In this document: piece after piece, positions 5,780 through 61,130 of the stretch | Layout: each line of letters starts with the position of its first letter | Numbering within the stretch: the first letter of the stretch is position 1 | Assembly (NCBI RefSeq): GCF_030547245.1 | Contig: NZ_JAUOQT010000006.1 | Span: forward strand, 124,001-188,000 | DNA from: Oceanihabitans sp. 2_MG-2023 | Lineage (GTDB): Bacteria > Bacteroidota > Bacteroidia > Flavobacteriales > Flavobacteriaceae | Direction: 5' to 3' | Length of the DNA: 64,000 nt | The notes under the pieces: generated by a model | The model's input: the letters and a program-made list of their open reading frames with translations, nothing else | What the model was told of the DNA's origin: nothing | The model's database searches: none | Translations under genes and position numbers: made by a program

Positions 5780-5783
5780 AAAC

Positions 5784-26200: not shown

Positions 26201-27345
26201 TAAATAGAGAAGTAAATATTGAAGCAGGATTTGTTACAAATAAGGAAAAGGAATGTTTGTTTATTCAAGTAACAAATACTAGTGAAGGTATACCTTCTGA
26301 TAAAATTGACAGAGTCTTCGATCGTTATTATCGTGGAGTAGATGAAAAAAATGATTGGAGCGGTACAGGTATTGGTTTAGCACTATGTAAATCATTAATA
26401 GAATTAATGAAAGGTTCTATTGAGGTGACTAGTGAAATAGATAAGAAAACAACATTTAGAATAGAGCTTCCCGTTGTAGATAAAGGAAATTATTTAGAAG
26501 AAGGGGAATTTAATAAATATCAAAAGCTAGTAACAGATTGGTTACCTGCAGAATTAGATAATCCGCAAGATGAAACCTTAGACATTCTTCGGCCTACTAT
26601 TTTAGTAATTGATGATGAGCAAGACGTACGTTCTTTTCTTTATGAATCTTTTAAAAGTAAGTATAATGTTTTAGTAGCAGCAGATGGTGAAGAAGGATTA
26701 ATGAAAATACAAGAAAATCCACCACAACTAGTCATTAGCGATGTAATGATGCCAAAATTAAACGGTTATGACCTTTGTGAAAAAATCAAGTCTAGTATAG
26801 AGTTTTGTCATATTCCAGTGATCCTATTAACAGCAATGGGTGATGATCTAAAGGAAATTAAGGGTTTAGAATTAGGTGCAGATGATTATATTGTTAAACC
26901 ATTTTCTATTAAATATTTAGAAGTTAGGGTGAAAACACTCATAGAAAATAAACAACGCATATTTACTCATTTTTCTAGAAATAGTTCCATCCCTAAAGAT
27001 TCATTAATGACTTCTAGTAGGGATAAACAATTTTTGGAAAAAATCAATATATCAATAGAGAGAAATATGTCCAATTCGGCATTTGGCGTCGAAGAGTTAG
27101 CAACAGATATAGGTATGAGTACTTCTCATTTTTATAGAAAACTAAAAGAACTTACTGGTCAAGCCCCTAATGTTTATCTTAGGAACTTTCGTTTACAAAA
27201 AGCAGCACAATTATTAACGGCAAATAAAAATTTAACTGCCGCGGATATTATGTTTGAAATTGGTATAGAGTCAAAGTCTTATTTTTCTTCCGCTTTTAAA
27301 AAAATACATGGAGTTTCTCCATCAGAATTTGTTAAGAAATTATAA
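23212..27345 (+). CDS. Hybrid two-component system sensor-regulator (HTCS) of the polysaccharide locus
   Basis: 1377-residue one-protein signalling system. Order: signal peptide (1-19); periplasmic two-component propeller repeats (about 25-720, with recurring WIGT and GLxxYD units) and a Y_Y_Y domain (about 725-810); a membrane helix (about 818-840); histidine kinase with His874 in NISHDFKTPLS and a HATPase domain (NLFSNAVKYS, GTGIGLALCKS); receiver with Asp1177 in VISDVMMPK; and a C-terminal AraC helix-turn-helix (about 1275-1377). Such proteins bind an oligosaccharide in the periplasm and directly activate the adjacent locus. It precedes the enzyme genes, so it is the likely activator. The 261-base upstream spacer showed no exact TAnnTTTG. 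Confidence 0.95.
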   Translation: MKIKLIYLLTFLSVSFSYAQIKNVQPSNQRIESFNSEQGFNQNTVSAIISDSKGYLWVATPNGLVRYDGYSFEYYYHDHENKQSLINNYVSHLLSDSKGRIWIATREGINIYLTDKEQFLPIKNSTNKAVCIKEDGRNRVFVGDSKKIEVYYSGGEDLEEINKITEINLEKVLGDNTITDIEFYSDSELLVATNTKIYKIDFNEKANYTIGVLELQLDKKINAIKKIIKVDNSLWIGTSTGLYQTFHENSRLITVGTHFTSSNENIDTQYDILSLYLDTEKKLWIGTRKNGIVCYDANTSNFRSFKFDSKYNNGLTSNRINCFFEDAFGVLWIGTAQGGLNKFDKNQKPFQNYSHNPYDDKSLSGNLITDITEASDGTIWMSFFESSICRTDEKLNIKTVNQIHFNRLEKQLSMLKEQWVLRLYQDDNGYWWISTSEGIYLYDEKKDNLHKIQILVEGQLINPIFYRLIEQMNADQIILGGSKILMLNNPWESILNDKPIETVQVLFDIGANNQINEYLKDDFGNYWFATINGIYRVIKNNEEWLIKNHISTNSDDGLKLSNNRVFSMHKDLNKNIWLGTFGGGLMKIKLNVLGEPLEIKGYHKKEGLRDEAIYGILEDDKEQLWLSTDMGIGHFDPINETFDFYDVNNGILSNNFRQSAYLKTKNGTMLMGGVGGLTIFDPNDINKNEISPKILISRLKINNQPIVVGKKINNKVVLERSISETKQLVVGNNSRNISLDIIVQHSATPNKNKLAYKLEGVNNDWIEIDGGKTTATYTNLSPGNYIFLYKGANGDGIWTTKTESFSIEVLAPWYSRNWSIALWVLLVSLITYGVFKYLVKVEKLNQKLKFEQLDKERVRDMNQAKLRFFTNISHDFKTPLSLIIGPLEKIAEQNKDIGNQKYFSIIQNNISRLQRLIDQLISYRKAETGHLELNYSKITLGNFIYPLMEAFEEYSQKTLLNFYYKVDEPNKLISLDLNKTERVLLNLFSNAVKYSNLNREVNIEAGFVTNKEKECLFIQVTNTSEGIPSDKIDRVFDRYYRGVDEKNDWSGTGIGLALCKSLIELMKGSIEVTSEIDKKTTFRIELPVVDKGNYLEEGEFNKYQKLVTDWLPAELDNPQDETLDILRPTILVIDDEQDVRSFLYESFKSKYNVLVAADGEEGLMKIQENPPQLVISDVMMPKLNGYDLCEKIKSSIEFCHIPVILLTAMGDDLKEIKGLELGADDYIVKPFSIKYLEVRVKTLIENKQRIFTHFSRNSSIPKDSLMTSSRDKQFLEKINISIERNMSNSAFGVEELATDIGMSTSHFYRKLKELTGQAPNVYLRNFRLQKAAQLLTANKNLTAADIMFEIGIESKSYFSSAFKKIHGVSPSEFVKKL

Positions 27346-27410: not shown

Positions 27411-27476
27411 GATTGAACTCAGTAATATTATGAAGGATATGAGTAAGCCTCTTTTAGTCTGATAATTGCATATTTG
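27411..27476 (+). promoter_or_regulatory. Operator and promoter block of enzyme unit 1 (copy 1)
   Basis: GATTGAACTCAGTAATA (27411-27427), GAGTAAG (27441-27447), TTAGT (27454-27458) and GCATATTTGT (27468-27477) recur in the same order before the second enzyme unit at 40274-40340, with nearly identical spacing. CATATTTG is a one-mismatch -7 element and is followed by about 29 bases of leader before the ATG at 27506. The upstream blocks would be the regulator site. Confidence 0.65.
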
Positions 27477-27505
27477 TGATAATACTTAGGTGAAAATTAA
27501 GATTA

Positions 27506-28987
27506 ATGAAAAATAAACTACGCTTTTTTGCAATAATATTGTTTGTGTCAATGGGTAACGTGTCGGCCCAAAATAAATTTCTTAAAAATACCAAACCAAA
27601 CATTATTCTAGTAATGACCGATGATCAGGGTATGGGAGATTTATCCTGTATGGGAAATCAAGTTTTAAAAACACCAAATATTGATGCCTTCTATAAAAAA
27701 TCGACGCGATTTACCGATTTTCAAGTCAGTCCAACATGTGCACCTACAAGAGCTGCTTTAATGAGTGGAAATCGCCCGTTTGAAGTTGGTGTAACACACA
27801 CCATTTTACAACGAGAACGTCTGGATTTAGATGTTTTTACTATGCCACAAGCCTTACAATCTGCAGGATATGAAACAGCGCTTTTTGGAAAATGGCATTT
27901 AGGAGACGATGAAGATTATTTACCTATTAATCGAGGGTTTAATGAAGTCTTAATGCATGGAGCAGGAGGTATTGGACAAACTAGGTATGGCGATTTTCCA
28001 CCGAATGAAGAAAACTTATATTTCAATAATGTTTTACTGCATAATAATACCATTGTAAAAACAGAAGGTTTCTGTACCGATGTGTTTTTCGATGCAGCAA
28101 TGGCTTGGATTAAAGAAAAAAATAGCACCAATAAACCGTACTTCGCTTATGTCGCTTTAAATGCACCACATGCACCATTGGTAGCACCAGAAAATTACAA
28201 AAAACGTTTTTTAGACTTAGGTTACGATAAAGGTACAGCTGGGCGTTACGGCATGATTGAAAACATCGATGATAATTTTGGTAAAATGATGCAAAAATTA
28301 GAGTCTTGGAATGCCTTAGAAAATACGCTTGTTATTTTCATGACAGATAATGGAGCAACACATTTAAAAGGATCACTTAACGGAGAAAAAATCACACATT
28401 TTAATGCCAATTTAAGAGGTGGAAAGAATTCGCCTTTTGAAGGAGGAACACATGTACCTGCCTTTTGGTATTGGAAAGGAAAATTAGGAACAGGAGTGGA
28501 TATTGATAAACTTGTTTCTCATATCGATTTATACCAAACTTTTTGTGAAATAGCAGGAGTTACACTGCCCGAAAAAATGCAAGACTTAAGTGGTCGCTCT
28601 TTGCTTCCACTTTTAGAGAACCCCAATGAAGAATGGGAAGATAGAGAATTGTTTATTCACTGTGGTCGTTGGGCCGAAGGTAAACGCGAAGAATTTAAAT
28701 ACCAAAAAGCAGCGGTAAGAACACAACAATGGCGATTGGATAATAATACCCAATTGTATAATATACCAAATGATCCTTCAGAAGAAAATGACGTATCTGC
28801 GCAACATCCCGAAGTTATTGCCCAGCTTCGAGAAGCATATAACCAATGGTGGGAAAATACCAAACCTTTAATGGTAAATGAAGGCTTACCAAAAGTAAAA
28901 CCAGAAGATCAGCCACTTGCAAAGCGCTATTACAAGCAATTAAAAGAGTCTGGAATTCCTAATTGGGCACCAGAAAACAATAATTAA
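27506..28987 (+). CDS. Secreted S1-family sulfatase
   Basis: 493 residues with a signal peptide (1-22). The alkaline-phosphatase-like fold has the metal aspartates in IILVMTDDQG, the formylglycine site CAPTR (Cys78, in SPTCAPTRAALMSG), the LFGKWHLGD lysine-histidine motif, APHAPL and IFMTDNGA. It should remove a sulfate ester from the algal polysaccharide in the periplasm after Cys78 is matured to formylglycine by FGE, which is not in this window. It is the first gene of unit 1, 14 bases before a GH29 gene. Regiospecificity cannot be read from the sequence. Confidence 0.9.
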   Translation: MKNKLRFFAIILFVSMGNVSAQNKFLKNTKPNIILVMTDDQGMGDLSCMGNQVLKTPNIDAFYKKSTRFTDFQVSPTCAPTRAALMSGNRPFEVGVTHTILQRERLDLDVFTMPQALQSAGYETALFGKWHLGDDEDYLPINRGFNEVLMHGAGGIGQTRYGDFPPNEENLYFNNVLLHNNTIVKTEGFCTDVFFDAAMAWIKEKNSTNKPYFAYVALNAPHAPLVAPENYKKRFLDLGYDKGTAGRYGMIENIDDNFGKMMQKLESWNALENTLVIFMTDNGATHLKGSLNGEKITHFNANLRGGKNSPFEGGTHVPAFWYWKGKLGTGVDIDKLVSHIDLYQTFCEIAGVTLPEKMQDLSGRSLLPLLENPNEEWEDRELFIHCGRWAEGKREEFKYQKAAVRTQQWRLDNNTQLYNIPNDPSEENDVSAQHPEVIAQLREAYNQWWENTKPLMVNEGLPKVKPEDQPLAKRYYKQLKESGIPNWAPENNN

Positions 28988-29000
28988 TAAATTAAATAAA

Positions 29001-30755
29001 ATGATTAAAAGAAATCTTTTTATACTATCCTTTCTTTTGTTTTTAATTGGTGTTTTATCGGCCCAAGAGCCAATATCTAAAGTCGACAGCACGGTAGGTT
29101 GGTATAAGGATACAAAATTTGGCATGTTTGTTCATTTTGATGTGCGAGGTGATAAGAGTAAATTTAATCCTAATAATCTGGATACAGATGAATGGGTGCG
29201 CATTGCTAAAGAGGCTGGAATGAAATATATCGTTCCAACAACACATCAGTCCTCACACATTATTATGTGGGACTCTAAGGTCTCAACCATGGACGTCACG
29301 GATGTAACACCATTTAGACAGCCTTACTTGAAAGAGTTGTCCGAATCCTGTAAAGCTGAAGGTCTTAAAATGGGTGCGTATTTTGCCATTGCAGATCCAG
29401 GAAATCCTCTTTATAACGAACCAGATGTTGGAGGTGAGATAAGACCTTATGTAGATTATTTGCATGCTGTGATTAAGGAACTTTGTGAAATGCATGAACC
29501 AATCCTATTGTGGTTTGATGCTTCACGTAGGTTCAGAGCAGCAGAGGCCAAACCGCTGCTGCGTCAACAAGATATGATAGATATGCTTCATACTTACGGA
29601 ACCATTTCTAATAGTAGATTAGGAGACGATGATGCACAGCAGTATGTGGATTATTTAACTATGAATGATAACATGGCTCCAGATTTTAATTTAGGTATGC
29701 TTTGGGAATCTGCAGTAACAATTACTAAGGATGGATCTTGGCATTTTAAGTCTAAAGATGCCGCGTTGAGGTCTACTAAAGATCTTTTACATAGATTGAT
29801 TAATGCCGCAGGAAACGGTGGAAATTTATTATTAAATGTTGGGCCCGACCAAAATGGTGTCATTCCAAAGAATATGCAAGATAGATTGAAAGAAGTGGGA
29901 GATTGGCTTGCTATAAATGGGGAAGCAATTTATGGTACTCAAGCTGGTCCTTATCCGCATCAAATTAGTTGGGGTTCTATTTCACAAAGAAAGGATAAAG
30001 AAAATACAATTCTTTATTTAAATGTTGTGGACTGGCCACAATCGGGGAAATTTACGTTATACGGATTGCATAATAAGGTGCTCAAAGCTTCTCTTTTGGC
30101 AACAGACCAAGAAATAAGCTTTAAATCTATTCAGGAAAACAATATTATTACATTCGATATCCCAAAAAAACAACCCGGAAAGTTTGTTTCAGTAATTAAA
30201 GTAGTTATAGAAAACGAACCAATTATGGATCAAGACTTTGTTCAGCTTACCGATGGCAAGGTTTTAATGGAAGCTTATAATGCGCAAATTCATGATTTGG
30301 AGCTCATACAAAACAAACCAAGCAAAGCTATAGACATGAAAATGGTAACTGTTCCTCAAAAAGGCGAAGGTATTATGCCGGGAAGAGGTATGACGGTTAT
30401 AGGTTTTGATAAAAAAGGACAGGCTTTAAGTTGGGATTTAAAAGTATATCAACCAGGAGATTATGATGTAATGGTTGTTAGTCATGTCACTAAAGGGGAA
30501 GCATGGAAAGTGGATGGTAAACTAAAAGCAACTATTGCAGGCCAATCTGTAGAGAGTCAATTGTCCGATTTTAAACGGTTGGAAACCATTACCATGCCAC
30601 ATTATTTAGAATTATACTCGAAAATTGGAAAGGTAAAATTAGAGAATGCTGGAGCTTATACCTTAAACCTGGAGGTAGCCTCTGATTTTTTAAGTGAAAA
30701 GCCAAAAATTAAAGGTGTTGTTTTAATTCCGACAAAAGATAGAGGCAAGCAATAA
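29001..30755 (+). CDS. GH29-family protein lacking the active-site His pair
   Basis: 584 residues: signal peptide (1-20), GH29 barrel (about 28-330) and C-terminal beta-sandwich domains. The nucleophile aspartate is kept (LLWFDAS, Asp173), as is WES near the acid/base position. The conserved KHHDGF loop is replaced by HQSSHI (His82-Gln83-Ser84), so both substrate-binding histidines are gone, and the usual FGMFIHxG reads FGMFVHFD. It is closely related along its whole length to the next gene, which has intact motifs, so it arose by duplication. It may be a fucosidase with altered specificity or a non-catalytic binding protein. Confidence 0.85.
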   Translation: MIKRNLFILSFLLFLIGVLSAQEPISKVDSTVGWYKDTKFGMFVHFDVRGDKSKFNPNNLDTDEWVRIAKEAGMKYIVPTTHQSSHIIMWDSKVSTMDVTDVTPFRQPYLKELSESCKAEGLKMGAYFAIADPGNPLYNEPDVGGEIRPYVDYLHAVIKELCEMHEPILLWFDASRRFRAAEAKPLLRQQDMIDMLHTYGTISNSRLGDDDAQQYVDYLTMNDNMAPDFNLGMLWESAVTITKDGSWHFKSKDAALRSTKDLLHRLINAAGNGGNLLLNVGPDQNGVIPKNMQDRLKEVGDWLAINGEAIYGTQAGPYPHQISWGSISQRKDKENTILYLNVVDWPQSGKFTLYGLHNKVLKASLLATDQEISFKSIQENNIITFDIPKKQPGKFVSVIKVVIENEPIMDQDFVQLTDGKVLMEAYNAQIHDLELIQNKPSKAIDMKMVTVPQKGEGIMPGRGMTVIGFDKKGQALSWDLKVYQPGDYDVMVVSHVTKGEAWKVDGKLKATIAGQSVESQLSDFKRLETITMPHYLELYSKIGKVKLENAGAYTLNLEVASDFLSEKPKIKGVVLIPTKDRGKQ

Positions 30756-30796
30756 TTAAGGCCATAAGTTTCACTTCTAATAAAAAAATATAGAAA

Positions 30797-32638
30797 ATGA
30801 AAAATAAATGTTGTTTTATTTTACTATCAGTTTTGATGCTATCAACAAGCATGTTGTCTGCTCAAAACATAGGAACAGCGAATACATCTAATGAAGATTT
30901 AATGGGCTGGTTTAGAGACGCACGATTTGGGATGTTCATTCATTTTGGAGCATCCACTTCTGAAGATTTTTTAGAAGAAGGTCTTAACAAAACAGAACGT
31001 TACGAAAAGTCCGTTAAAAACTTTAATCCTGTTGATTTTGATGCTAAAGAATGGGTACGCATTGCTAAAGATGCTGGTATGAAATATATCGTTTTTACCA
31101 CCAAGCACCATGATGGATTTTGTAAATGGGATTCTAAATTAACCGATTGGGATGTAATGGATGCAACACCATTTAAAAGAGACATCGTTGGCGAATTGGC
31201 AGAGGCTTGCAAGGAAGCAGGTATTGAGCTGGGCTTTTATTATTCTATTGCAGACTGGCATCACCCAGAATATGATGCGACTTATAGTAACCGTAGAGGT
31301 TTCCATTTTAACCCAAATCCAGATGCAGATATTACAAAGTACATGGAGTTTATGTATGGTCAAATAAAGGAACTTTGCGAAAATTATCAGCCTAAATTAT
31401 TTTGGTTCGATGGTTCAGCAGGTTTCAGAAATCCAAATAAAAAACGATTGTTAGGACAACAAGAAATGGTCGATTTACTAAATTCTTACGGAGCAATCTC
31501 AAATAGCCGTTTGGGTGATGATGATAGTTTAGAATATGTCAATTATCTTTCTATGGGTGATAATATGACACCTTCAGGAAACATTGGTGTAGATTTCGAA
31601 TCTGCGCAAACCATGAACGATAATTGGCATTTTAAAAAAGGTGATGATAATTGGAAATCGGCAAAAACCATGCTTGGAAAGTTAATTGATATTGCAGGTA
31701 ATGGAGGGAATTATTTACTCAATGTTGGCCCAAATAGTAAAGGAGTTATTCCTGAAGCATCACAATTGCGACTTAAAATTATGGGGGAATGGCTTCAAAA
31801 AAATGGAAAAGCAATTTACGGAACAATTGCAGGTCCTTATCCTTATGAGTTAAATTGGGGAGCTATCACACAACGCATAGAAGCTGGAGTCACAACCTTA
31901 TATCTAAATGTGGTCGATTGGCCAAAAGATGGCAATTTTGAATTGTACGGACTCAACAATAGTATAGAAAAAGCATCACTTTTAGCAAATGGAAATGTAC
32001 TTTCTCATAATTCTGAATTTAATCTAGCTGCAGGAACCAACATCCTTTCCATTAAAGTGCCTAAAACAGCACCAGATCCGTATGTTTCTGTGATTGCTTT
32101 ACAATTAAAAGGACATCCAATAATGGATCAAGCGTTTTTGCAACAACAAGATGGAACAGTCATTTTAGACGCATTTCGTTCTACAATTCATGATGAAGAA
32201 TTTGTAGCAAACAAACCACAACGTCCACTAGATCAAAGAATATTTACTGTATTAAAAAAAGAAAAAGGCATTATGCCAACAAGAGGAATGACGGTTGGTC
32301 TTGATAAAAAAGGTCAAGCGTTACGTTGGGATTTTAGAATACTATCACCAGGAAAATATAAAGTCGCTATAATAAGTAGTGTTAAAGAGGAGTATTCATG
32401 GAAAACAGATGGAAGTATGCGTGTTACTGTAGCTGAAGAATCGGTTGAAAATAAATTAACAGAAAAGGAACGTTATAATAATGAAAGAATGGCAACAGAA
32501 ATGAAGTGTTCTGTAGCTGTTTTAGGAACTATTAACATGAAGACGGTAGGTATGAAAACACTTATACTTGAGGTTACTTCAGATTTTACAAATACTACAC
32601 CTAATATTATAAGTGTACAACTTTTACCAGTAGATTAG
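30797..32638 (+). CDS. GH29 alpha-L-fucosidase
   Basis: 613 residues: signal peptide (1-22), GH29 barrel and a long C-terminal region with two beta-rich parts. Motifs are intact: FGMFIHFG, TTKHHDGFCKWDS, nucleophile LFWFDGS (Asp205), NGGNYLLNVGP. It should release L-fucose from oligosaccharides in the periplasm with retention of configuration, feeding fucP. It lies 41 bases after its altered paralogue and 16 bases before the beta-helix gene. Linkage preference is not predictable here. Confidence 0.92.
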   Translation: MKNKCCFILLSVLMLSTSMLSAQNIGTANTSNEDLMGWFRDARFGMFIHFGASTSEDFLEEGLNKTERYEKSVKNFNPVDFDAKEWVRIAKDAGMKYIVFTTKHHDGFCKWDSKLTDWDVMDATPFKRDIVGELAEACKEAGIELGFYYSIADWHHPEYDATYSNRRGFHFNPNPDADITKYMEFMYGQIKELCENYQPKLFWFDGSAGFRNPNKKRLLGQQEMVDLLNSYGAISNSRLGDDDSLEYVNYLSMGDNMTPSGNIGVDFESAQTMNDNWHFKKGDDNWKSAKTMLGKLIDIAGNGGNYLLNVGPNSKGVIPEASQLRLKIMGEWLQKNGKAIYGTIAGPYPYELNWGAITQRIEAGVTTLYLNVVDWPKDGNFELYGLNNSIEKASLLANGNVLSHNSEFNLAAGTNILSIKVPKTAPDPYVSVIALQLKGHPIMDQAFLQQQDGTVILDAFRSTIHDEEFVANKPQRPLDQRIFTVLKKEKGIMPTRGMTVGLDKKGQALRWDFRILSPGKYKVAIISSVKEEYSWKTDGSMRVTVAEESVENKLTEKERYNNERMATEMKCSVAVLGTINMKTVGMKTLILEVTSDFTNTTPNIISVQLLPVD

Positions 32639-32654
32639 TAAATACTAGTTATCC

Positions 32655-35024
32655 ATGAAGCAGTTTTCATTTCTTTTTCTTTATTTTTTATTCGGAACCA
32701 TGCTAGTTTCTGGACAATCTGTAGAAATTTATGTTAGTTCCGAAGGTTCAGATTCTAATATTGGATCTATAAATCAACCATTAGCAACATTTGCTGCTGC
32801 ACAATTTAAAGCACGAACTTATGTCGGTAAAGAGGCTGTCACTATTTATTTTGCTGACGGTATCTATTATTTAGATGAAAGTCTAGTTTTTAAACCTGAA
32901 GATTCGGGTACCAAGAAGTTTCCTGTTGTGTATCGTGCTCAAAACGAAGGTAGCGCAGTATTAAGTGGTGGGAGGAAACTAAACTTAAAATGGAAATCGT
33001 TTCGTGATGGTATATTTCAAGCGAAAACACCTGAAGGTATCAAAATTGACCAAATTTTTGTAAACGGATTAAATCAACACATGGCTAGATATCCTAATTA
33101 CAATGTTAGTAAGAAAACAGATGCTTATCAGGGTTATGCTGCAGATGCGTTTTCTAAAGAAAGAACTACCACATGGAATAATCCAAAAGGAGGTTATATA
33201 CATGCTATGCATTCTAAAGAATGGGGAGGATATCATTATATCATTACTGGTAAAAATGAAGAAGGAGAAATAACTTATGAAGGAGGCTGGCAAAACAACA
33301 GACAAATGGGTATGCATCTAGAATACCGCATGGTCGAGAATATATTTGAAGAATTAGATGCTGTTGGAGAGTGGTTTCATGATGAAAAGACATACACGTT
33401 GTATTACAAGCCAGAAGAAACCACAGATCTAAACAAAGCAACAATTGAAGTTGTTCGATTAAAACAATTAATAGATTTTCAAGGTTCCATAGAAAAACCA
33501 GTAAAACATATAGCTTTACAAGGTTTTGTAGTAAAACACGCAGCAAGAACGTTTATGCAAACCAAAGAACCTATGGTGCGTTCCGATTGGACGATTTTTA
33601 GAGGTGGTGCTTTTATGTTAACGGGAACAGAAGATATTCAGATTTTAGATTGTGAGTTCGATCAAGTTGGTGGAAATGCTATTTTTGTAAACAACTATAA
33701 TAGGAATACCTTAATCAAAGGAAATTACATTCATCATACAGGAGCTAGTGGAGTTTGTTTTGTAGGTGATCCAAATGCGTTACGTGATCCGTTGTTTGAA
33801 TATGGCGAGAAAAATGATATGCTAACCGTAGATAAAACACCTGGCCCAAAAACTGAGAATTATCCTGCATTGGGAGCCGTTGAAGATTGTTTAATTCATA
33901 ATATTGGAACCGTAGAACGTCAACCTGCTGGAATACAAATTACCATGGCAATGGATATTATAGTTAGAGATTGTTCTATTTACAATTGTACACGTTCAGG
34001 AATTAATATCGGTGATGGTGCTTTTGGAGGTCATTTAATTGAACGTTGCGATGTTTTTAGTACCGTATTGGAAACACATGATCATGGGTCTTTTAATTCT
34101 TGGGGAAGAGACCGCTATTGGCGACTTAAAAACTCAGATTTAAGTAAATATCCAGAATTACCATTTGCTGATGCCATAAAAACAACGACCATTCGTAACA
34201 GCCGTTGGCGTTGTGATCATGGTTGGGATATCGACTTAGACGATGGTTCTACCAACTATGATATTTATAATAATCTAATGTTGTCAGGTGGTTTAAAACT
34301 TCGCGAAGGGTTTAGAAGACGTGCTTGGAATAATATTACCATAAATAATACCTTTCATCCACATGTGTGGTATGAAAACAGTGGAGATGAGGTGTTTTCA
34401 AATATTTTCATGTTTGTATATCAAGGTGTAAAAGTACCAACGGAAAAGAATTCTGGCAAACTAGTCGACAGAAATCTTATTTATGATTCAGAACTAACAC
34501 AAGAGTTTGGATGGGACCAAAACTCCATTATAGCCGATCCACAATTTATTAATCCTGCTAACGGAGATTTTAGAGTAAAAGAAGGGTCGCCAGCTTTTGA
34601 TATTGGATTTAAGAACTTCCCTATGGATCAGTTTGGTGTTAAAAAGCCAGCTTTAAAAGCCATTGCAAAAACACCAATAATACCTGATTTAGGTGTTTCA
34701 GAAAATCTTAAGAATAAACGAGCAGCAAAAAAAGGTTCAAAACCAACTTGGTTAGGGGCAACTGTTAGTGGTTTATCAGGAATGGAATTTTCGGCTTACG
34801 GTGTTTCCAAAGAGGATGGAGGTATTGCTTTAATAAAAGTGCCTAAAAATTCTAAAGCAGCGAAAGCAGAATTATTAGAAGGGGACTTAATTTTAGCAGT
34901 AAACGGGCAAAAAACAGTTAATTTGAAACAGTTTTTCCGATACATGAAAAAAATAAGAGTTTCAGAAGTCACTTTAAAAATTGTAAGAGAACAGAAAGAA
35001 ATGGAATTAAAAACTACATTATGA
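32655..35024 (+). CDS. Right-handed beta-helix glycosidase-like protein with C-terminal PDZ domain
   Basis: 789 residues: signal peptide (1-20), a right-handed parallel beta-helix body opening with IYVSSEGSDSNIGSINQPLATF, and many short turn repeats such as IRDCSIYNCTRSGINIGDGA. This layout resembles GH141-like enzymes, a family including a fucosidase. The last 98 residues (about 692-789) form a PDZ-like domain with GLSGMEF, LLEGDLILAVNGQKTVN and VTLKIVREQ. A PDZ tail on a beta-helix polysaccharide enzyme is unusual and suggests docking to a protein C-terminus. Its stop overlaps the next start by four bases (ATGA). The exact family is uncertain. Confidence 0.75.
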   Translation: MKQFSFLFLYFLFGTMLVSGQSVEIYVSSEGSDSNIGSINQPLATFAAAQFKARTYVGKEAVTIYFADGIYYLDESLVFKPEDSGTKKFPVVYRAQNEGSAVLSGGRKLNLKWKSFRDGIFQAKTPEGIKIDQIFVNGLNQHMARYPNYNVSKKTDAYQGYAADAFSKERTTTWNNPKGGYIHAMHSKEWGGYHYIITGKNEEGEITYEGGWQNNRQMGMHLEYRMVENIFEELDAVGEWFHDEKTYTLYYKPEETTDLNKATIEVVRLKQLIDFQGSIEKPVKHIALQGFVVKHAARTFMQTKEPMVRSDWTIFRGGAFMLTGTEDIQILDCEFDQVGGNAIFVNNYNRNTLIKGNYIHHTGASGVCFVGDPNALRDPLFEYGEKNDMLTVDKTPGPKTENYPALGAVEDCLIHNIGTVERQPAGIQITMAMDIIVRDCSIYNCTRSGINIGDGAFGGHLIERCDVFSTVLETHDHGSFNSWGRDRYWRLKNSDLSKYPELPFADAIKTTTIRNSRWRCDHGWDIDLDDGSTNYDIYNNLMLSGGLKLREGFRRRAWNNITINNTFHPHVWYENSGDEVFSNIFMFVYQGVKVPTEKNSGKLVDRNLIYDSELTQEFGWDQNSIIADPQFINPANGDFRVKEGSPAFDIGFKNFPMDQFGVKKPALKAIAKTPIIPDLGVSENLKNKRAAKKGSKPTWLGATVSGLSGMEFSAYGVSKEDGGIALIKVPKNSKAAKAELLEGDLILAVNGQKTVNLKQFFRYMKKIRVSEVTLKIVREQKEMELKTTL

Positions 35025-36661
35025 AGATAAAGAATAGTATTTTATATATAGTATTTTTGTTTTTTGGAGTATTTCAAATACATGCACAGAACAGACGTTC
35101 CAATCCTTTTGTAAGCCACATGTTTACGGCAGATCCTTCAGCACATGTATGGGAAGATGGTCGATTATACGTCTATCCTTCAACAGACAACACACCACCA
35201 AGAGGTTATAAAACCATGGATGGTTATCACGTATTTTCTACCGACGATATGATTACTTGGAAAGATCATGGAGAGATACTTCATTCAAGTCAAGTAGAAT
35301 GGGGACGGGAAGAAGGCGGTTTTATGTGGGCACCTGATTGCGTCTATAAAGATGGCACCTATTACTACTATTTTCCGCATCCAACAGGCACGGATTTTCG
35401 AAAGACATGGAAAATTGGCGTAGCAACCAGCACAAAACCTGATTCAGATTTTAAAGAACAAGGTTACATTAAAGGATTGGAAGCGTACATCGATCCTTGT
35501 GTGTTTATTGACGATGATGGTCAGGCGTATCTCTACATAGCTGGACATAACCAATGCTACGGAGTTAAGCTAAAGGAAAACATGATGGAACTTGATGGCG
35601 AACTTATTTTACAAACAGGTCTCGATGGTCTTCGTGAAGGCCCTTTTGTGTTCAAACGAAATGACATTTATTATATGATTTACCCAGATGATTTTCCTAA
35701 ATTCAACAAAATGCGTTATGCCATGAGTAAAAGTCCATTAGGACCTTGGGAAAACAATGAAGTCTTTTTAAGCAGTACAGATGTCATTACAACGCATGGT
35801 TCGGTAGTAGAATATAAAGATCAATGGTACATCTTTTATCACAACGGAAATTTATCAGGAGGTATAGGGCCAAATCGTTCAATTTGTTTTGATCCTATTT
35901 ATTTTAATAAAGACGGCACTATTCAAATGGTAAAACAAACCTTAGGTGTTACGTTACCAACCTTTCATAAGAACGTTAATTTTAATGGTATGATGGGCAC
36001 ATTGTCCGTTGGAAATTATAATCAAGATGAATTGGAAAAACTAGGCATTCAGCCAAATAGTATATCATCTATTGAAATTCCGAAAGGCTATAGAGTTGAA
36101 GGTTTTGAAAAGGATAATTTCAAAGGGGAATCTTGGACGTTTGAAGAAAATAGAATCAATATCAATGAACTCGGTTGTAATAATGATTTCAAGTCATTGA
36201 AAATTTCAAAATTCACAAATGAAAACCTCGTTAAAAACCCATCTTTTGAATTGGCAACCCAAGAACAGATAAAACATTGGCGAAGTCGTCGTTCTTCACA
36301 ATTATATAAAAGGGCTTTAGATAATCCGGCAGCGGGTTATTATGCAATGCAATACAAAGGAAACGGAAAGGCGCAACCAATTACGCAAATTGTAGATTTG
36401 ATTCCAAATACTAACTATAAACTTAGTGTGAAATTAAAAGTCAATACTGGTACCAAAGGCAAAGTGATTTTTGATACCAACGGTAGTTTTGACAACACTT
36501 GTAAATTTGAACTTGATGCGGATAAAAAGACGGATGAATGGGTGGAAATTAAAAATGAATTTAATAGTGGGAGTTTATTAAAAGTAGAGTTACGTTGTTT
36601 AGTTTCTGAAGATTTCCAAGGAACTGCAAATTGGGATAATGTCGTGTTAAAAGTGAAATAG
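35021..36661 (+). CDS. GH43-like five-bladed propeller glycosidase with C-terminal carbohydrate-binding region
   Basis: 546 residues: signal peptide (1-23), then a GH43-type propeller with the expected acidic triad: Asp38 in TADPSAHVW (general base), Asp158 in YIDPCVFID (pKa modulator) and Glu206 in REGPFVFK (general acid). The C-terminal 150 residues include NLVKNPSFELATQEQIKHW and look like a CBM-type jelly roll. Substrate could be xylose, arabinose, galactose or a related branch sugar. Start overlaps the previous stop by four bases, so it is translationally coupled to the PDZ beta-helix gene. Confidence 0.8.
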   Translation: MKIKNSILYIVFLFFGVFQIHAQNRRSNPFVSHMFTADPSAHVWEDGRLYVYPSTDNTPPRGYKTMDGYHVFSTDDMITWKDHGEILHSSQVEWGREEGGFMWAPDCVYKDGTYYYYFPHPTGTDFRKTWKIGVATSTKPDSDFKEQGYIKGLEAYIDPCVFIDDDGQAYLYIAGHNQCYGVKLKENMMELDGELILQTGLDGLREGPFVFKRNDIYYMIYPDDFPKFNKMRYAMSKSPLGPWENNEVFLSSTDVITTHGSVVEYKDQWYIFYHNGNLSGGIGPNRSICFDPIYFNKDGTIQMVKQTLGVTLPTFHKNVNFNGMMGTLSVGNYNQDELEKLGIQPNSISSIEIPKGYRVEGFEKDNFKGESWTFEENRININELGCNNDFKSLKISKFTNENLVKNPSFELATQEQIKHWRSRRSSQLYKRALDNPAAGYYAMQYKGNGKAQPITQIVDLIPNTNYKLSVKLKVNTGTKGKVIFDTNGSFDNTCKFELDADKKTDEWVEIKNEFNSGSLLKVELRCLVSEDFQGTANWDNVVLKVK

Positions 36662-36673
36662 AAAAATAGTATT

Positions 36674-37849
36674 ATGAAAAAAACACTTCTATATATATTA
36701 CTTATTACTGTAAGCGTATTGCAGGCACAAGACAAAGAAAGTGAAAATCAATCTTTAATGATTAGTGACGGAAGCAATTTTACATCTAAGGATTTCTTTC
36801 CTAAATTTAGTTGGGATACCACACCTATGTATTATATGTTTCAGCACAAGAAACGCTTGTTAAAGCCAGAAGAAGTGGGGTTTATAGCAGCACGAACAGG
36901 TTTTTTATGTATTGAAAAGTCACACGGAAAAGCAGAACTCGGCGCTGCAGAATTGGGAGCAAAGCATGAGTCTGCAGCATTTAAAGAAGCGAAGTCAGAT
37001 GCAAAAGTCTTGTTCTATTTCAATTCGGCATACGCTTGGCCTTATACGTCATATAGCGAGAATTTCACAAAAGAGCGTATTGAAGATTACCCTGAATTGA
37101 AAAAATTTCTATTAACCAACCCAAAAACTGGAAAACTTTACGAGCATTATGGTGCGTTTTGCTTTGATATTTTAAATCCTGATTTCCGTGCATGGTGGGT
37201 AGAAACTGTTGTTAAAGGTGTAAAAGAATCGGGTTGCGATGGAGTATTTATTGACCAAATGCATGGTAATAATAGATTTATTAAGGATAAAAAGGAAGAG
37301 ATTGCGGTAGCAATGGGAGAGATGATGGGCGCACTTAAAGAAAAAATGGGTGCAGACAAAATTCTATTGGGAAATAATGCTAATAATAAGGATGCAAAAT
37401 ATGTATATCCTGTTTGTGATGCTGTGATGTTTGAGAATTATGCTACGGTTAGATCGAAAAAAGAGAACTTATTAAGCGAATGGCAGGATATGCTGAAAAA
37501 TGCTAAAAATGGAAAGATATCTGTATTTCGCTTGGGTGTTGAAGGAGCAGGTCGTGGCAATTTAAAACCTAAAGGTGAGATGCCAAATTTTTCTCAAAAG
37601 CAGTTAGAGTTTGCGCTCGCTTGCTACTTAATTGGTGCGCAACCTTATTCCTATTTTATGTATAGTTGGGGATGGACTTTAGCTACGGGATCTTTGGTAA
37701 ACTATCCAGAATTGCAAAAACCATTAGGAGCACCAAAAGGAGCTTATAAAAGAACAACACCAGAAGGTTGGGAGTTCACTCGCGAGTTTGAACATGCTAG
37801 CGTTTGGGTAGACACAGAAAACAGAAAGGCTAAGATTACTTGGCATTAA
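36674..37849 (+). CDS. Putative glycoside hydrolase, TIM-barrel-like (GHL15- or GH168-like?)
   Basis: 391 residues with a signal peptide (1-18). The body reads as a (beta/alpha)8 hydrolase: KVLFYFNSAYAWP, GAFCFDILNPDFRAWWVETV, CDGVFIDQMHGNN and DAVMFENYA. Asp194 and Glu254 lie at strand ends and are candidate catalytic residues. The pattern resembles hypothetical glycosyl hydrolase family 15. The length and acidic pair would also suit GH168 endo-1,3-fucanases, an idea I cannot test here. It sits between a GH43-like and a beta-helix enzyme in unit 1. Confidence 0.6.
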   Translation: MKKTLLYILLITVSVLQAQDKESENQSLMISDGSNFTSKDFFPKFSWDTTPMYYMFQHKKRLLKPEEVGFIAARTGFLCIEKSHGKAELGAAELGAKHESAAFKEAKSDAKVLFYFNSAYAWPYTSYSENFTKERIEDYPELKKFLLTNPKTGKLYEHYGAFCFDILNPDFRAWWVETVVKGVKESGCDGVFIDQMHGNNRFIKDKKEEIAVAMGEMMGALKEKMGADKILLGNNANNKDAKYVYPVCDAVMFENYATVRSKKENLLSEWQDMLKNAKNGKISVFRLGVEGAGRGNLKPKGEMPNFSQKQLEFALACYLIGAQPYSYFMYSWGWTLATGSLVNYPELQKPLGAPKGAYKRTTPEGWEFTREFEHASVWVDTENRKAKITWH

Positions 37850-37869
37850 AAAAGAATTTAACTAAGACT

Positions 37870-40026
37870 ATGAAACGACAATTTATTTTAACGCTATCGC
37901 TAATCATTAGCTATGCATGCAGTAGTTCGGATATTATCGGACAAAGCAAAGCTGATTTTTATGTATCAACTCAGGGATCGGACAATTGGTCTGGAACATT
38001 AGAGCAACCAAATCCAGAAAGAACAGATGGTCCATTTGCTACGTTAGAACGTGCACGTGATGCCGTGCGAAAATTGAAAAAGAATAAATCTGAAGATATT
38101 GTCGTGCTTATTAGAGAAGGCGTATATCAACTCAGAGAGACTGTGGTATTTGGATTGAGGGATTCAGGGGAAGGCAACGCTACCATTACCTATGAAGCCT
38201 ATCCAGGCGAAACACCAATATTCAGTTCTGGGCAAGAGATTAAGGGTTGGCAAAAAGTGACCGAGGAAATTCCAGGTCTGCCCAAAGAAGCTGTCGGAAA
38301 TATTATGGTCGCCAATGTTTCCAATAAATTTCTGACTCTATACGATGAAGAAGGCATGTTGCCGCGTGCACAGTCGGTAAAGTTTATGCCTTTAGAGGGA
38401 AGCAAAAAGAATAAACTCAATTTTCCTGAAGGAACATTAAAAAACTGGTCTAACATTAAAGATGTTGAAATATTAGTGCGTCCAACACGTGAATGGATAG
38501 TGAATATGCTGCCATTGGAATCCGTTGATGAGAAAAAGGGAGTTGCGCATACAGCAATTGACGCTACTTATGCTATGACCAAAAAAGGATTTTGGGTAGA
38601 GAACGTTATCGAAGCGCTTGATGAGCAAGGTGAATGGGTGTTAAATACAAAAGAAGGAAAAGTATACCTATGGCCAAGGAACCAATCGCAAGTGGTTGTA
38701 CCAACTTTGATTGAATTTATAAAAGTAGAAGGAAAAATTGATATACAAGGGCCAACGGATGTTCCTGTAAAAAATCTTCATTTTCGTGGTTTGACTTTTA
38801 AACATGGAGAACGCTATACTTTAACAAAAGACGATGCTGGTTTACAACACGATTGGGACATGCTTGATAAAAATAATGCCCTAATACGTTTTCGTGGTGT
38901 AGAAAATAGTAGTATTGAAAACTGTCATTTTTTATATAGTGGAAGTGGTGCTATTCGAGTAGATTTATACGGAATAAATAACACCATTTCTAGTAATCAT
39001 ATTGAACACTTAGGAGGAGGTGGAATTCTACTTTGCGGTTATGGTCCTGGTACCAAAGATGTTAATAAAAACAATACCGTTTATAATAATAAGGTGCATC
39101 ACGTAGGTGAAATTTATTGGCAATCACCAGGTGTTTTTCTATGGAATAGTGGAGATAACCGAGTAGCGAATAATCTAATTCACGATACAAATTATTGCGG
39201 TTTAATAGTTTCAGGTTGTGTGATTCGTTTTTTTAATCATTCTAATAGACGCGAACAATCTAGAGCCATCCGTTGGGATGAAATAGGAGAGTTGCCTGAT
39301 GTAAAAGAATTAACGCCAGATGATGTCCGTCCATATTGGCACAGTCGTAATAATATTATAGAATATAATGAGATTCATAATGTTATGAATAAGTTAGGAG
39401 ATGGTAATGGTATTTACATTCGTGCTGCAGGTGCTGGAAATATAATTCGTCGAAATTATGTACATCATTTAGAAGCAAAAACAGGAAAACAAAGTGCAAT
39501 TAGAACCGATGGTGGACAAATGGATGTTTTAATCTCAGAAAACCTAATTTATAAATGTAGATCACAGGGCATGACTTTAAAGCTAAACAATCGCTTTGAA
39601 AATAATATTATTGCAGATATTATTCCTCCAGGTGGCACTTATTTAAAACTCGTTGAAGGTCCATCCAATGGAGCGACCAATAAAAAAAATATCTTTTATT
39701 CTACAACAGAATCTGTGACGTTCTTAACTGAACCAAAAGCAGGAAAAGGGTTGGTAGGTGAAGATAGTAGAGGTAGAGTACCTGCACGAATAAAAGATGT
39801 AGACTCCGACTATAATATTTATTTCTGTAAAGCAGATAATAGTATAGCAGAAGAACGACTTAAAAAATCACAGACTAATGGTGTTGATTATAATAGTAAA
39901 GCGGTAGACCCAATGTTTGTAGATCCAGAAAATGGAGATTTTAGATTTAAACCTAATTCTCCTGCAATTAAAATGAATATTCTTCCAATAGATTTGTCTA
40001 AGATTGGTTTGCGTAATCAAGATTAA
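37870..40026 (+). CDS. Right-handed beta-helix protein, GH141-like
   Basis: 718 residues from the ATG at 37870. The N-terminus MKRQFILTLSLIISYAC is a signal peptide, possibly of lipoprotein type although the lipobox is imperfect. It is followed by FYVSTQGSDNWSGTLEQPN and GPFATLERARDAVRKLK, the typical opening of GH141-like beta-helix enzymes, then a long helix region with HHVGEIYWQSPGVFLWNSGDNRV and GGGILLCGYGPG. GH141 includes alpha-L-fucosidase and xylanase activities. The frame is open from 37840 but would overlap the previous gene by 10 bases and hide the signal peptide. It is the last gene of unit 1 and lacks the PDZ tail of its relative at 32655. Confidence 0.78.
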   Translation: MKRQFILTLSLIISYACSSSDIIGQSKADFYVSTQGSDNWSGTLEQPNPERTDGPFATLERARDAVRKLKKNKSEDIVVLIREGVYQLRETVVFGLRDSGEGNATITYEAYPGETPIFSSGQEIKGWQKVTEEIPGLPKEAVGNIMVANVSNKFLTLYDEEGMLPRAQSVKFMPLEGSKKNKLNFPEGTLKNWSNIKDVEILVRPTREWIVNMLPLESVDEKKGVAHTAIDATYAMTKKGFWVENVIEALDEQGEWVLNTKEGKVYLWPRNQSQVVVPTLIEFIKVEGKIDIQGPTDVPVKNLHFRGLTFKHGERYTLTKDDAGLQHDWDMLDKNNALIRFRGVENSSIENCHFLYSGSGAIRVDLYGINNTISSNHIEHLGGGGILLCGYGPGTKDVNKNNTVYNNKVHHVGEIYWQSPGVFLWNSGDNRVANNLIHDTNYCGLIVSGCVIRFFNHSNRREQSRAIRWDEIGELPDVKELTPDDVRPYWHSRNNIIEYNEIHNVMNKLGDGNGIYIRAAGAGNIIRRNYVHHLEAKTGKQSAIRTDGGQMDVLISENLIYKCRSQGMTLKLNNRFENNIIADIIPPGGTYLKLVEGPSNGATNKKNIFYSTTESVTFLTEPKAGKGLVGEDSRGRVPARIKDVDSDYNIYFCKADNSIAEERLKKSQTNGVDYNSKAVDPMFVDPENGDFRFKPNSPAIKMNILPIDLSKIGLRNQD

Positions 40027-40273
40027 AAAGTCTGAAATCGTATAAAATTTAACTTATAAGACACTTTAAAATAACGTATTATTCATATACGAAATTCCTA
40101 AATTCAATCCGTGATTTGTAAGAATTAGTAAATATTTAAAGTTTTATTTTCTGTTTGTTTCAAAAAAAACGCTTAAAATTTTAGAATTTATTATAAAAAT
40201 CATGATTGATTAGAGTAATCATCACTCTTGAATCCCTTTAAAAATAAGAGAAACATGTTGTTCAAATCAACTT
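40027..40273. other. Spacer between the two enzyme units, left part
   Basis: AT-rich non-coding stretch after the last gene of unit 1. No strong terminator hairpin and no convincing small gene were seen. The right part of the 518-base spacer (40274 onward) holds the operator and promoter of unit 2. Confidence 0.4.
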
Positions 40274-40340
40274 GATTGAATTCAGCAATAAAAAAGCATG
40301 ACACGAGCAAGTCTATTAGTGTCTTCTCATCGCATATTTG
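40274..40340 (+). promoter_or_regulatory. Operator and promoter block of enzyme unit 2 (copy 2)
   Basis: GATTGAATTCAGCAATA (40274-40290), GAGCAAG (40305-40311), TTAGT (40316-40320) and GCATATTTGT (40332-40341) repeat the blocks of copy 1 at 27411-27476. The first block starts 59 bases before the -7 element here and 58 bases there. An imperfect palindrome TTCAAATCAACTTGATTGAA (40261-40280) overlaps the first block. The leader to the ATG at 40545 is about 200 bases long, much longer than for unit 1. Confidence 0.65.
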
Positions 40341-40544
40341 TATATCATCACGAATATCGAATTTCGCATTATTGAAAGTGTTTTGTTGTTTAATTCATAT
40401 TAATTGAATTGAAATTTTATTTAATTGATATTTTAAGGGTTTGTAATTTATTTTATGTCAATTTAAAAAACAGCAAATAGTAGTGTAAATATTATGTAAA
40501 TCTGAAAACGCATAATGTGCCATATATTTTTAAAGATAACCTAT

Positions 40545-42338
40545 ATGTTAAGAAAAAGAAATCAAGTTTTATCGATAATAGCAATAGTGCTATGTGTACT
40601 AAATAGTTTCTCGCAAGAACCTAAAAAGAGTCAAGAAGGTATGGATAAGATGTGGGGAGAGGCTTCTACATCCGGAGGTGATATTAGAGGAGGTAAAGGT
40701 AAGTTTTTCGATCAAAGTAACTTCGGGATGTTTATTCATTGGGGTTTGTATTCTGACTTAGCAGGAAAGTGGAATGGTAAAACTTATTATGGTATTGGTG
40801 AGTGGTTGATGAATCCTAAAGTAGCAAATATTAGACCTAAAGATTACATGGGGGTTGCAAAAGACTTTAATCCAACAGAATTTGATGCTAAAGCTATAGC
40901 AAGATTAGCCAAGGATGCAGGTATGAAATATATTGTCATTACTAGTAAGCATCATGAAGGCTTCGCTATGTTTGATACTAAAGTAAGCGAATTTAATATT
41001 GTAGATGCTACACCATTTGGTCGAGATCCAATGAAAGAGTTATCTGCTGCATGTCATGAATTAGGATTAGGATTTGGATTTTATTATTCTCACTATCAAG
41101 ATTGGACAACTCCTGGTGCTGCAAACGGACCAACAACCAATGCAGATGGAAGTAAAGCATCATTTACAGATTATTTCTATAATAAATGTAAACCGCAAGT
41201 AGAGGAAATCTGTACAAATTATGGAGATATTGATTTTGTATGGTTTGATACACCTGGAGGAATGCCAAAAGAATTAGTTATAGAGTTGGCAAATACAGTT
41301 AGAAAATTGCAGCCAAATGCGATGATGAGCAGTAGAATAGGACACGGTATGGGGGATTATGTAACACATGGGGACATGGAGGTTCCTCCCGTAAACTTAG
41401 ATGTTTTATGGGAAAGTGTTGATACCAATAATGATTCATGGTCTTTTGCTTGGTATGACAATAACTTTAAAAGTCCAAAAGAAATTTTACACAGATTAAT
41501 CTCAACTGTTGGTAGGGGTGGTACGTACATGTTTAATGTTGGCCCTAATGGAGATGGTGTAGTTCCTGAAATCGGAACTAAGTTTTTAGAACAAACAGGT
41601 AAATGGATAAAGAAATATCCACAAGTTATCTATAATGCAGGCAGTTCTCCTTGGGGACATGCTCTTCCATGGGGAGATGTTACAACTCAAGGCAATTCAT
41701 TATTTCTTTCGGTCTTCGATTGGCCTCAAGATGGGAAACTATATTTGCCTGGTTTAAAAAGTGAAATAACTTCTGCTAGTATTATTGGAAACAATAAGCA
41801 GATGAAATTGAATTATAAAAAAGAGAACGATTGGATCCTTTTTGAAGTTCCTTATAAAAAACCAGATGCTCCAGTTGCTGTAATTGAGGTTAAATTGAGC
41901 AAGGAGCCTGTGGCAAATCAAACACATGGTATTTACCCTAATATAGCAACTACAATATTAACCGATTTTGCTAAAGTTTCTAATGCTGAAAAAAAATCTA
42001 TTCGTTGGATGGAGAAGTTTGGAGAATGGAAAAAAACAACACAAGTATCTAAATGGGAAAAAGATGGAATAGCAGAATGGGAAGTGAATGTGTTAGTACC
42101 TGGTTATTATTATTTAGACTTAAATTATAAAGGGGAAGGTCGTTTGGTTTGGAAAACCATAACAGATGAAGGCGTCATGGTGCAAAATGAACAAGCAGCT
42201 ACAAAAAAATACAATGCTTACCCAATGGGAATTATAGAGTTTAAAACAGCTGGTAAACATACGGTATCGGTTTCGTTAGTTAGCGGGGATTTAGAAACTT
42301 CTAGTTTAAAATCAATTGTCATTAAACCAATTCAATAA
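40545..42338 (+). CDS. GH29 alpha-L-fucosidase
   Basis: 597 residues from the ATG at 40545: signal peptide (about 1-24), GH29 barrel and C-terminal beta domain. Motifs: [26 protein letters not shown] (Glu in place of the usual Asp after the His pair), nucleophile FVWFDTPGG (Asp235), VLWESVDTNNDSWSF and GGTYMFNVGPNGDG. It releases L-fucose in the periplasm. The upstream start at 40515 would put 10 extra residues before the signal peptide and is rejected. First gene of unit 2. Confidence 0.92.
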   Translation: MLRKRNQVLSIIAIVLCVLNSFSQEPKKSQEGMDKMWGEASTSGGDIRGGKGKFFDQSNFGMFIHWGLYSDLAGKWNGKTYYGIGEWLMNPKVANIRPKDYMGVAKDFNPTEFDAKAIARLAKDAGMKYIVITSKHHEGFAMFDTKVSEFNIVDATPFGRDPMKELSAACHELGLGFGFYYSHYQDWTTPGAANGPTTNADGSKASFTDYFYNKCKPQVEEICTNYGDIDFVWFDTPGGMPKELVIELANTVRKLQPNAMMSSRIGHGMGDYVTHGDMEVPPVNLDVLWESVDTNNDSWSFAWYDNNFKSPKEILHRLISTVGRGGTYMFNVGPNGDGVVPEIGTKFLEQTGKWIKKYPQVIYNAGSSPWGHALPWGDVTTQGNSLFLSVFDWPQDGKLYLPGLKSEITSASIIGNNKQMKLNYKKENDWILFEVPYKKPDAPVAVIEVKLSKEPVANQTHGIYPNIATTILTDFAKVSNAEKKSIRWMEKFGEWKKTTQVSKWEKDGIAEWEVNVLVPGYYYLDLNYKGEGRLVWKTITDEGVMVQNEQAATKKYNAYPMGIIEFKTAGKHTVSVSLVSGDLETSSLKSIVIKPIQ

Positions 42339-42373
42339 AAAAATTAACATTACTAAAAGTAAGACCTACAAGA

Positions 42374-44188: not shown

Positions 44189-44201
44189 AAAAAACAATAA
44201 A

Positions 44202-44552: not shown

Positions 44553-44598
44553 CAACGGTTAACTGATTTCAATTTATTGAACATTATTTCAAAAAAAA

Positions 44599-45729: not shown

Positions 45730-45761
45730 CAAATGTTTATTAATTAAAAACCATAATTATT

Positions 45762-46703: not shown

Positions 46704-46760
46704 TCATTTAATTTCCTAACTCCATATCTACCATAAATACCTATTGTCATTATCATAATT

Positions 46761-49199: not shown

Positions 49200-49211
49200 A
49201 GAGTATACATT

Positions 49212-50645: not shown

Positions 50646-50701
50646 ACTATTTAAACTAGATTTTTAGAGCTTCCGACTATTAGATAATAAAGAAAAGTTT
50701 C

Positions 50702-52183: not shown

Positions 52184-52187
52184 AAGC

Positions 52188-53057: not shown

Positions 53058-53064
53058 TAAAAAT

Positions 53065-54567: not shown

Positions 54568-54592
54568 ACTAATTATATTAAAACCAACAATT

Positions 54593-57781: not shown

Positions 57782-57804
57782 AAAATTAATAAAAACAACA
57801 AATT

Positions 57805-59466: not shown

Positions 59467-59508
59467 CATAGAATAGTGATTTCTATATAAATTTAGTATG
59501 CATCAGTA

Positions 59509-59559: not shown

Positions 59560-59583
59560 AATCCATAAAATTACGCATAGCTC

Positions 59584-61119: not shown

Positions 61120-61130
61120 TCGTTGAAATT

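Follow-up and report, generated by a model that had tools for sequence, protein, structure and literature searches.

Putative promoter-linked operators of a hybrid two-component system before two enzyme units of a probable flavobacterial fucan locus

Hybrid two-component systems (HTCSs) are a major class of glycan-gene switches in Bacteroides (PMC11253607), and in the open-licence literature, as far as its available excerpts extend, HTCS operator motifs were found from gut Bacteroides only. The 64,000-nucleotide stretch of DNA analysed here (the window) carries an HTCS gene followed by two units of enzyme genes, with similar sequence blocks upstream of each unit. Are these blocks the operators through which the HTCS controls the two units? 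A sequence-only reading had suggested so, describing four blocks in the same order before the genes at 27506 and 40545 (GATTGAAYTCAGYAATA, GAGYAAG, TTAGT and CATATTTG) and naming the HTCS as their regulator and the two units as its regulon.

The locus and its two upstream sites

The source genome is 3.69 Mb in size and belongs to the same genus as Lacinutrix sp. C3R15. The protein encoded at 23212 (1377 aa) has Reg_prop, Y_Y_Y, HisKA, HATPase_c, Response_reg and HTH_18 domains, all above the Pfam cut-off, and is an HTCS by definition, uniting a propeller sensor, a histidine kinase, a receiver and an AraC-type HTH in a single chain. A by-eye reading of the translation shows CHIP in the receiver, which fits the S/CHIP motif described as typical of most HTCSs (PMC11253607). 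Genes for an AraC-type regulator, an aldehyde dehydrogenase, an MFS permease and an FMN-dependent dehydrogenase (Pfam) lie 5' of the HTCS gene.

Judging from spacing and strand, unit 1 is probably co-transcribed; one of its beta-helix proteins has a GH141 match below the cut-off. Unit 2 begins with a GH29 gene whose ATG is at 40515 or 40545, and it contains a gap of about 410 nt before 44599, at which its transcript may be split. The SusC/SusD pair together with GH29, GH43 and sulfatase genes marks a polysaccharide utilization locus (PUL), and its enzymes, along with the name of the relative M. fucanivorans, point to sulfated fucan as the likely substrate. Also encoded in the window is a large secreted T9SS-tailed protein that matches no Pfam enzyme family and has 73-81% identical stretches in all three relatives introduced below; it is possibly a novel fucan enzyme. 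A Bacteroid-trp leader RNA was found just 5' of a minus-strand gene starting at 9812. The features are collected in Table 1, in which W1 denotes the window copy before 27506 and W2 the copy before 40545.

Table 1. Positions of genes, half-sites and promoter boxes (window coordinates, except where a locus L105, L107 or L108 is named)
Feature	Position	Strand	Basis or remark
Bacteroid-trp leader RNA, RF01692	9848-9974	-	64.8 bits
AraC-type regulator (17564)	17564-18475		AraC-type DNA-binding domain (Pfam); beside aldehyde dehydrogenase and MFS permease genes
HTCS, proposed activator of units 1 and 2	23212..27345	+	Pfam; close orthologues in three genomes
W1 inner half-site (block 1 of the earlier reading)	27411..27427	+	21 bp 5' of proximal half-site
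W1 proximal half-site GAAGGATATGAGTAAGC	27432..27448	+	Contains GAGTAAG (GAG from 27441); held-out score 18.2 bits
W1 -7-like box CATATTTG	27469..27476	+	Direct reading
Unit 1: sulfatase, two GH29-type fucosidases, two beta-helix proteins, GH43, GHL15	27506..40026	+	Pfam, gene reading
W2 distal direct half-site	40204..40220	+	92 bp 5' of proximal; held-out score 13.7 bits
CCCTTTAAA..AAG block	40234-40248		Between W2 distal and inverted half-sites
W2 outer inverted half-site	40256..40272	-	40 bp 5' of proximal; held-out score 14.4 bits
W2 inner half-site (block 1 of the earlier reading)	40274..40290	+	22 bp 5' of proximal half-site
W2 proximal half-site GCATGACACGAGCAAGT	40296..40312	+	Contains GAGCAAG (GAG from 40305); held-out score 16.8 bits
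W2 -7-like box CATATTTG	40333..40340	+	Direct reading
Unit 2: GH29, sulfatases, esterase, T9SS-tailed proteins, more GH29, SusC, SusD	40515..62741	+	Some by eye
Large secreted T9SS-tailed protein	46761-49199		No Pfam enzyme family match
SusC	54593-57781	+	Within unit 2
SusD	57805-59466	+	Within unit 2
21 bp repeat near a distant HTCS	L105 ~73	-	Box at 27
21 bp repeat near a distant HTCS	L105 ~18279	+	Box at 27
21 bp repeat near a distant HTCS	L107 ~17203	-	Box at 27
21 bp repeat near a distant HTCS	L108 ~9447	+	Box at 27

The blocks and distances first described were borne out: GAG stands 28 nt from CATATTTG in both copies, and block 1 stands 58 and 59 nt from it. What the blocks represent had to be revised. 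Block 1 (GATTGAAYTCAGYAATA) and GAGYAAG are present but are not separate elements, since both are half-sites of one direct repeat with a period of 21 bp in W1 and 22 bp in W2. The inner half-site of W1 is weak (-0.7 bits), yet it ranks first of 338 positions when the proximal half-site is excluded; that of W2 scores 3.5 bits and ranks second of 337 once the strong half-sites are left out. TTAGT was dropped as an element, because its spacing varies (13 nt past GAG in copy 1, 11 nt in copy 2) and it is not conserved in the relatives. The second operator proved to be present but larger than first drawn, as it adds the inverted and distal half-sites listed in Table 1. Between these two half-sites, the CCCTTTAAA..AAG block may be the site of a second factor; it recurs in the C3R15 site 299b and, less exactly, in the AS56 sites 300a and 300b. 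In both window copies CATATTTG is one base off TAnnTTTG. With the box placed at -12 to -5, as reported for Flavobacteriaceae (PMC9723704), transcripts would start near 27481 and 40345, so that unit 1 would have a leader of about 25 nt and unit 2 one of 170-200 nt.

Taken alone, the likeness of W1 and W2 is suggestive rather than compelling. Exact matches to block 1 in the whole genome are confined to the two window places, from which the pattern was derived; if two mismatches are allowed, the count rises to 6, while a reversed-pattern control gives 3, and with up to three mismatches the window alone holds 5 (shuffle average 1.58). The best 17-mer common to both upstream regions has 2 mismatches, a level reached against copy 1 by none of 291 random 300-nt windows on the plus strand, while 43 of them had 3. 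When the pair was scored by gapped local alignment, 8 of 2924 random windows equalled or beat it, and in this AT-rich DNA the pair came fifth of 253 among 23 window upstream regions, with 4 pairs scoring higher. A genome search with the fixed-spacing pattern, which had been proposed as a check, was unspecific (16 matches with up to three mismatches against 8 for the control), and copy 2 was absent from its matches because its spacing is 1 nt longer. It is through sites in relatives that the window pair becomes firm.

Sites in relatives and genome searches

Close orthologues of the HTCS are encoded by Lacinutrix sp. C3R15 (87% identical), M. fucanivorans (78%) and Mariniflexile sp. AS56 (73%). 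In two samples that partly overlap, one of 299 and one of 395 genomes, C3R15 (G305) was the only genome besides that of the window with a close orthologue; the other HTCS relatives at E <= 1e-200 were 37-44% identical. Homologous clusters in the three relatives yielded seven further sites: 299a and 299b in C3R15, 300a and 300b in AS56, and 301a, 301b and 301c in M. fucanivorans. Together with W1 and W2 they form the nine-site set. Counts of the pattern TCAAATC..GAGYAA in the four genomes (11, 5, 10 and 9) were hardly above those of the control (7, 5, 7 and 7), yet this pattern pointed the way to the relatives' sites.

Six of the seven lie directly 5' of an enzyme or SusC-like gene. Sites 299b, 300a and 301a precede orthologues of 40545, 301b an orthologue of the sulfatase gene 42374, 299a a SusC-like gene, and 301c a GH43-like gene, whose Pfam match barely passes the cut-off, along with a sulfatase gene. 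The exception is 300b, which precedes a gene for a T9SS-tailed protein without known function and then a sulfatase gene. In all four genomes the HTCS gene directly adjoins one site, which stands before the 40545 orthologue in AS56 and M. fucanivorans and before other genes in the window and C3R15. Because gene order has been rearranged while the operator stays beside the HTCS, the operator is kept as an independent unit. At the level of bases, conservation of the operator within the genus is only modestly above that of its flanks: W2 and 299b agree in 109 of 138 alignment columns in the operator, 129 of 180 upstream and 148 of 220 downstream.

None of the ten best half-sites of the window falls in the upstream gap of 23212, so that the window gives no sign of HTCS autoregulation there. 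In M. fucanivorans, 301c stands 5' of GH43-like, sulfatase and GH29-like genes (L062 ~1386-10231, minus strand), which leave about 140 nt between their end and the HTCS gene. Since 301c precedes a gene run that ends at the HTCS gene, autoregulation is possible in that species.

The half-site consensus is approximately GCATGATTTGAGYAAG. Half-sites were scored held-out, with matrices trained without the scored genome and site places chosen with all genomes in view. A proximal half-site was found in all nine sites (13.6 to 25.5 bits). An inverted half-site is present in seven (14.4 to 22.8 bits), 40 bp 5' of the proximal one in W2, 299b, 300a and 300b and 26 bp 5' of it in 299a, 301a and 301b; W1 and 301c have none of comparable strength. 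W2, 299b, 300a and 300b also carry a distal direct half-site, 90 or 92 bp 5' of the proximal one (13.7 to 18.9 bits). The inner direct half-site, 21 or 22 bp 5' of the proximal one, scores weakly (-0.7 to 4.6 bits) and occupies ranks 1-3 of 337-338 positions in all nine sites, with strong half-sites set aside in the ranking and inner half-sites excluded from training. In 299a, 301a and 301b it overlaps the inverted half-site, and these three sites are therefore not independent evidence for a direct repeat.

The distance from GAG to the -7-like box is nearly constant, being 28 in W1, W2, 299b and 300b and 27 in 300a, 301a, 301b and 301c; 299a has an imperfect box, TACTTTG, 26-27 from GAG. No box is a perfect TAnnTTTG. 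The C at the first base, pointed out earlier for both window copies, stands in six of the nine boxes, with an A in 301c and a T in 300b, whose box ends in TTTA. The possible dependence on an activator that had been suggested from this C is consistent with these boxes. A TTG -33 box 20-26 nt 5' of the -7 box occurs in none of the nine sites, although by our estimate most sites would lack one by chance alone.

A model built from the seven relatives' sites alone ranked W2 (19.4 bits) and W1 (18.9 bits) first and second in the window genome, with third place at 15.9 bits. The margin of about 3 bits over the third-best place is small, yet both top ranks are the predicted places. The nine-site model gave 34.2 and 32.4 bits for the two window sites and 14.9 bits for the next place, and thus found no third strong site in this genome. 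Over 12 genomes its other strong sites were three in M. fucanivorans and two each in C3R15 and AS56, so that all nine strong sites are training sites; in the other eight genomes nothing exceeded 19 bits. Across 299 family genomes, searched with stricter filters, matches above 23 bits occurred in the window genome only, which was also the one genome of this sample to encode a close HTCS orthologue, and six others had one match each at E <= 0.01 (17.4 to 22.6 bits). The best of these six, in G141, was the one inspected; it was rejected, as it lies inside a gene on the opposite strand.

The proposal of an operator plus promoter before each unit, regulated by the HTCS, is thus supported at the sequence level by both models and by the co-occurrence of sites with the HTCS, and a two-unit HTCS regulon is well supported because the relatives' sites, the nearly fixed spacing and the model searches agree. 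We consider it very probable that both window blocks are operators of the 23212 HTCS and that each forms one piece with the promoter of its enzyme unit. This reading rests on sites that stand before enzyme units, are regularly spaced and conserved, and, in the genomes searched, occur together with the HTCS.

Similar repeats were found near distant HTCSs that are 41-42% identical to that of the window and share 67-71 of 109 residues with its DNA-binding domain. At four places less than 28 kb from such HTCS genes (Table 1), a half-site of this kind is repeated directly at 21 bp, and TAnnTTTG or TAnnTTTA follows at exactly 27. In G207, GATTTGAGCAA and GATATGAGTAA form a repeat with a spacing of 21 bp, and TATGTTTG follows at 27; a second, weaker repeat, whose box is TATTTTTG, also at 27, stands 5' of a sulfatase-like gene (by eye). 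In G304 and G305, which are near copies of each other here, a 21 bp repeat has TATATTTA at 27; in G305 it stands 5' of a gene for a secreted-looking protein. When any spacing from 10 to 35 was allowed, ten repeats scored at least 14; four of them were spaced 21, and no others of the ten were spaced so or had a box at 26-28. The reversed-sequence control gave five repeats, none spaced 20-22 and none with a box. These neighbourhoods are 7 of the 11 listed, with repeats in three and none in four. AS56 also carries a 42% identical HTCS paralogue. We tentatively suggest a rule for flavobacterial HTCSs of this group, namely half-site, 21-22 bp, half-site, with the -7 box 27-28 nt from the GAG of the latter. 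Operators of the fucan clade might then have grown to as many as four half-sites, with direct and inverted HTCS pairs, perhaps a higher oligomer or a loop, and promoters kept weak by the C of the -7 box.

Other explanations for the sites

A different regulator could bind the sites, the simplest candidate being the AraC-type protein of 17564, whose gene lies 4.7 kb from the HTCS gene; we regard this as unlikely. Its presence alone does not speak against it, because orthologues occur in all four genomes with strong sites. Relatives of 17564 also have a 41-44% identical HTCS encoded some 5 kb away in G173:C32, G002:C8, G207:C1 and C3R15 contig C4, and G207 is one of the genomes that carry the distant 21 bp repeats. 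The recurrence of this pairing across genomes suggests that the two types of regulator tend to travel together. Position separates them: the HTCS is beside one site in every one of the four genomes, whereas the 17564 orthologue is separated from the strong sites by about 86 kb in AS56 and sits on a different contig in the other two relatives, C3R15 and M. fucanivorans. Of the window region's ten best half-sites, none is near 17564. Moreover, seven of 298 other family genomes encode a 54-77% identical relative of 17564, and none of the seven has a nine-site match at E <= 0.01; two genomes with such a relative, G014 and G121, have no HTCS relative at E <= 1e-200.

It is quite improbable that the elements are terminators or mRNA hairpins of the upstream gene rather than operators. 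The element after the HTCS gene can fold in two relatives, with 19 pairs (z -8.6) and a T run in M. fucanivorans and 24 pairs (z -7.0) in C3R15. The window copies, however, do not fold clearly better than shuffles (z +1.7 and -0.4), copy 1 has no terminator-like match on the plus strand, and no Rfam family matches at either copy. Half-sites occur also where no such fold forms, their distance from the -7 box stays the same, and the upstream genes differ. With the same z values, the operator just past the HTCS stop codon in L009 and L007 is a long palindrome able to form a strong hairpin, which may also end the HTCS transcript.

That the two copies are a chance likeness or the remnant of a duplicated upstream region would fit the unexceptional alignment rank of the pair in AT-rich DNA, but is scarcely credible given that a model blind to the window sites recovers both at the top of the genome and that half-sites stand at equivalent places in three other genomes.

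Proposed mechanism and comparison with known systems

If the 23212 HTCS does act at both operators, the following course of events would fit the positions of the elements. A periplasmic fucan oligosaccharide would activate the HTCS, its receiver domain would be phosphorylated, and its AraC-type domains would bind the half-sites as a dimer. The direct copies, 21 or 22 bp apart, would be separated by two helix turns, with the downstream copy centred near -41. The proximal half-site would thereby cover about -49 to -33, the place of the -33 box, in the fashion of a class II activator, and the bound HTCS could recruit the primary sigma factor to the off-consensus -7 box, by which promoter activity would stay low as long as the activator is absent. 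In W2, further subunits could sit on the inverted and distal half-sites. Binding, activation, ligand and transcript starts are all predictions here, and the mechanism is read from position.

For B. thetaiotaomicron, all 16 of 16 predicted HTCS motifs are reported as direct repeats, with an average distance of 21 bp (Ravcheev et al. 2013, PMC3878776). The window resembles these operators in having an AraC-type HTCS in a PUL, a direct repeat of about 21 bp (two direct half-sites 21 and 22 bp apart in the two window sites) before the regulated units and a small local regulon; this likeness is one of architecture (PMC3878776). It differs from the B. thetaiotaomicron motifs, as excerpted from that source, in that the sites are not direct repeats only: an inverted half-site is added in seven of nine sites and a distal one in four of nine. 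Because inverted and distal half-sites fall outside the direct-repeat scheme, we regard the sites as a variant on the published one. The direct-repeat scheme was already known, and what is new here are the inverted half-sites (26 or 40 bp) and the distal ones (90-92 bp), for which we found no report for HTCSs in the available excerpts of the open-licence literature. Compared with B. thetaiotaomicron, the present sites also document a nearly fixed distance of 27-28 nt to a -7-like box, in a marine flavobacterial fucan locus.

Promoters of the primary sigma factor in Flavobacteriaceae are described as having a TAnnTTTG -7 box at -12 to -5 and a median leader of 24 (PMC9723704). The sites resemble these promoters in a -7-like box and, for unit 1, in a predicted leader of 25 nt, while the longer leader predicted for unit 2 departs from the median (PMC9723704). 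They differ in the frequent C at the first base of the box, in the lack of any perfect box and in the half-site that replaces the -33 box. Half-site, spacing and distance to the -7 box together would allow regulons to be predicted for marine fucan degraders.

A parallel to the placement of the proximal half-site is found in E. coli, where the half-sites of RhaS/RhaR and AraC are about 17 bp long, with the promoter-proximal one beside the core promoter. Inverted or distant half-sites also occur in that family. RhaS/RhaR and AraC are soluble one-component proteins, whereas the regulator in the window is a membrane-bound hybrid two-component protein, and the mixture of direct and inverted half-sites described here makes it a testable question how a membrane-anchored AraC-type regulator pairs on DNA.
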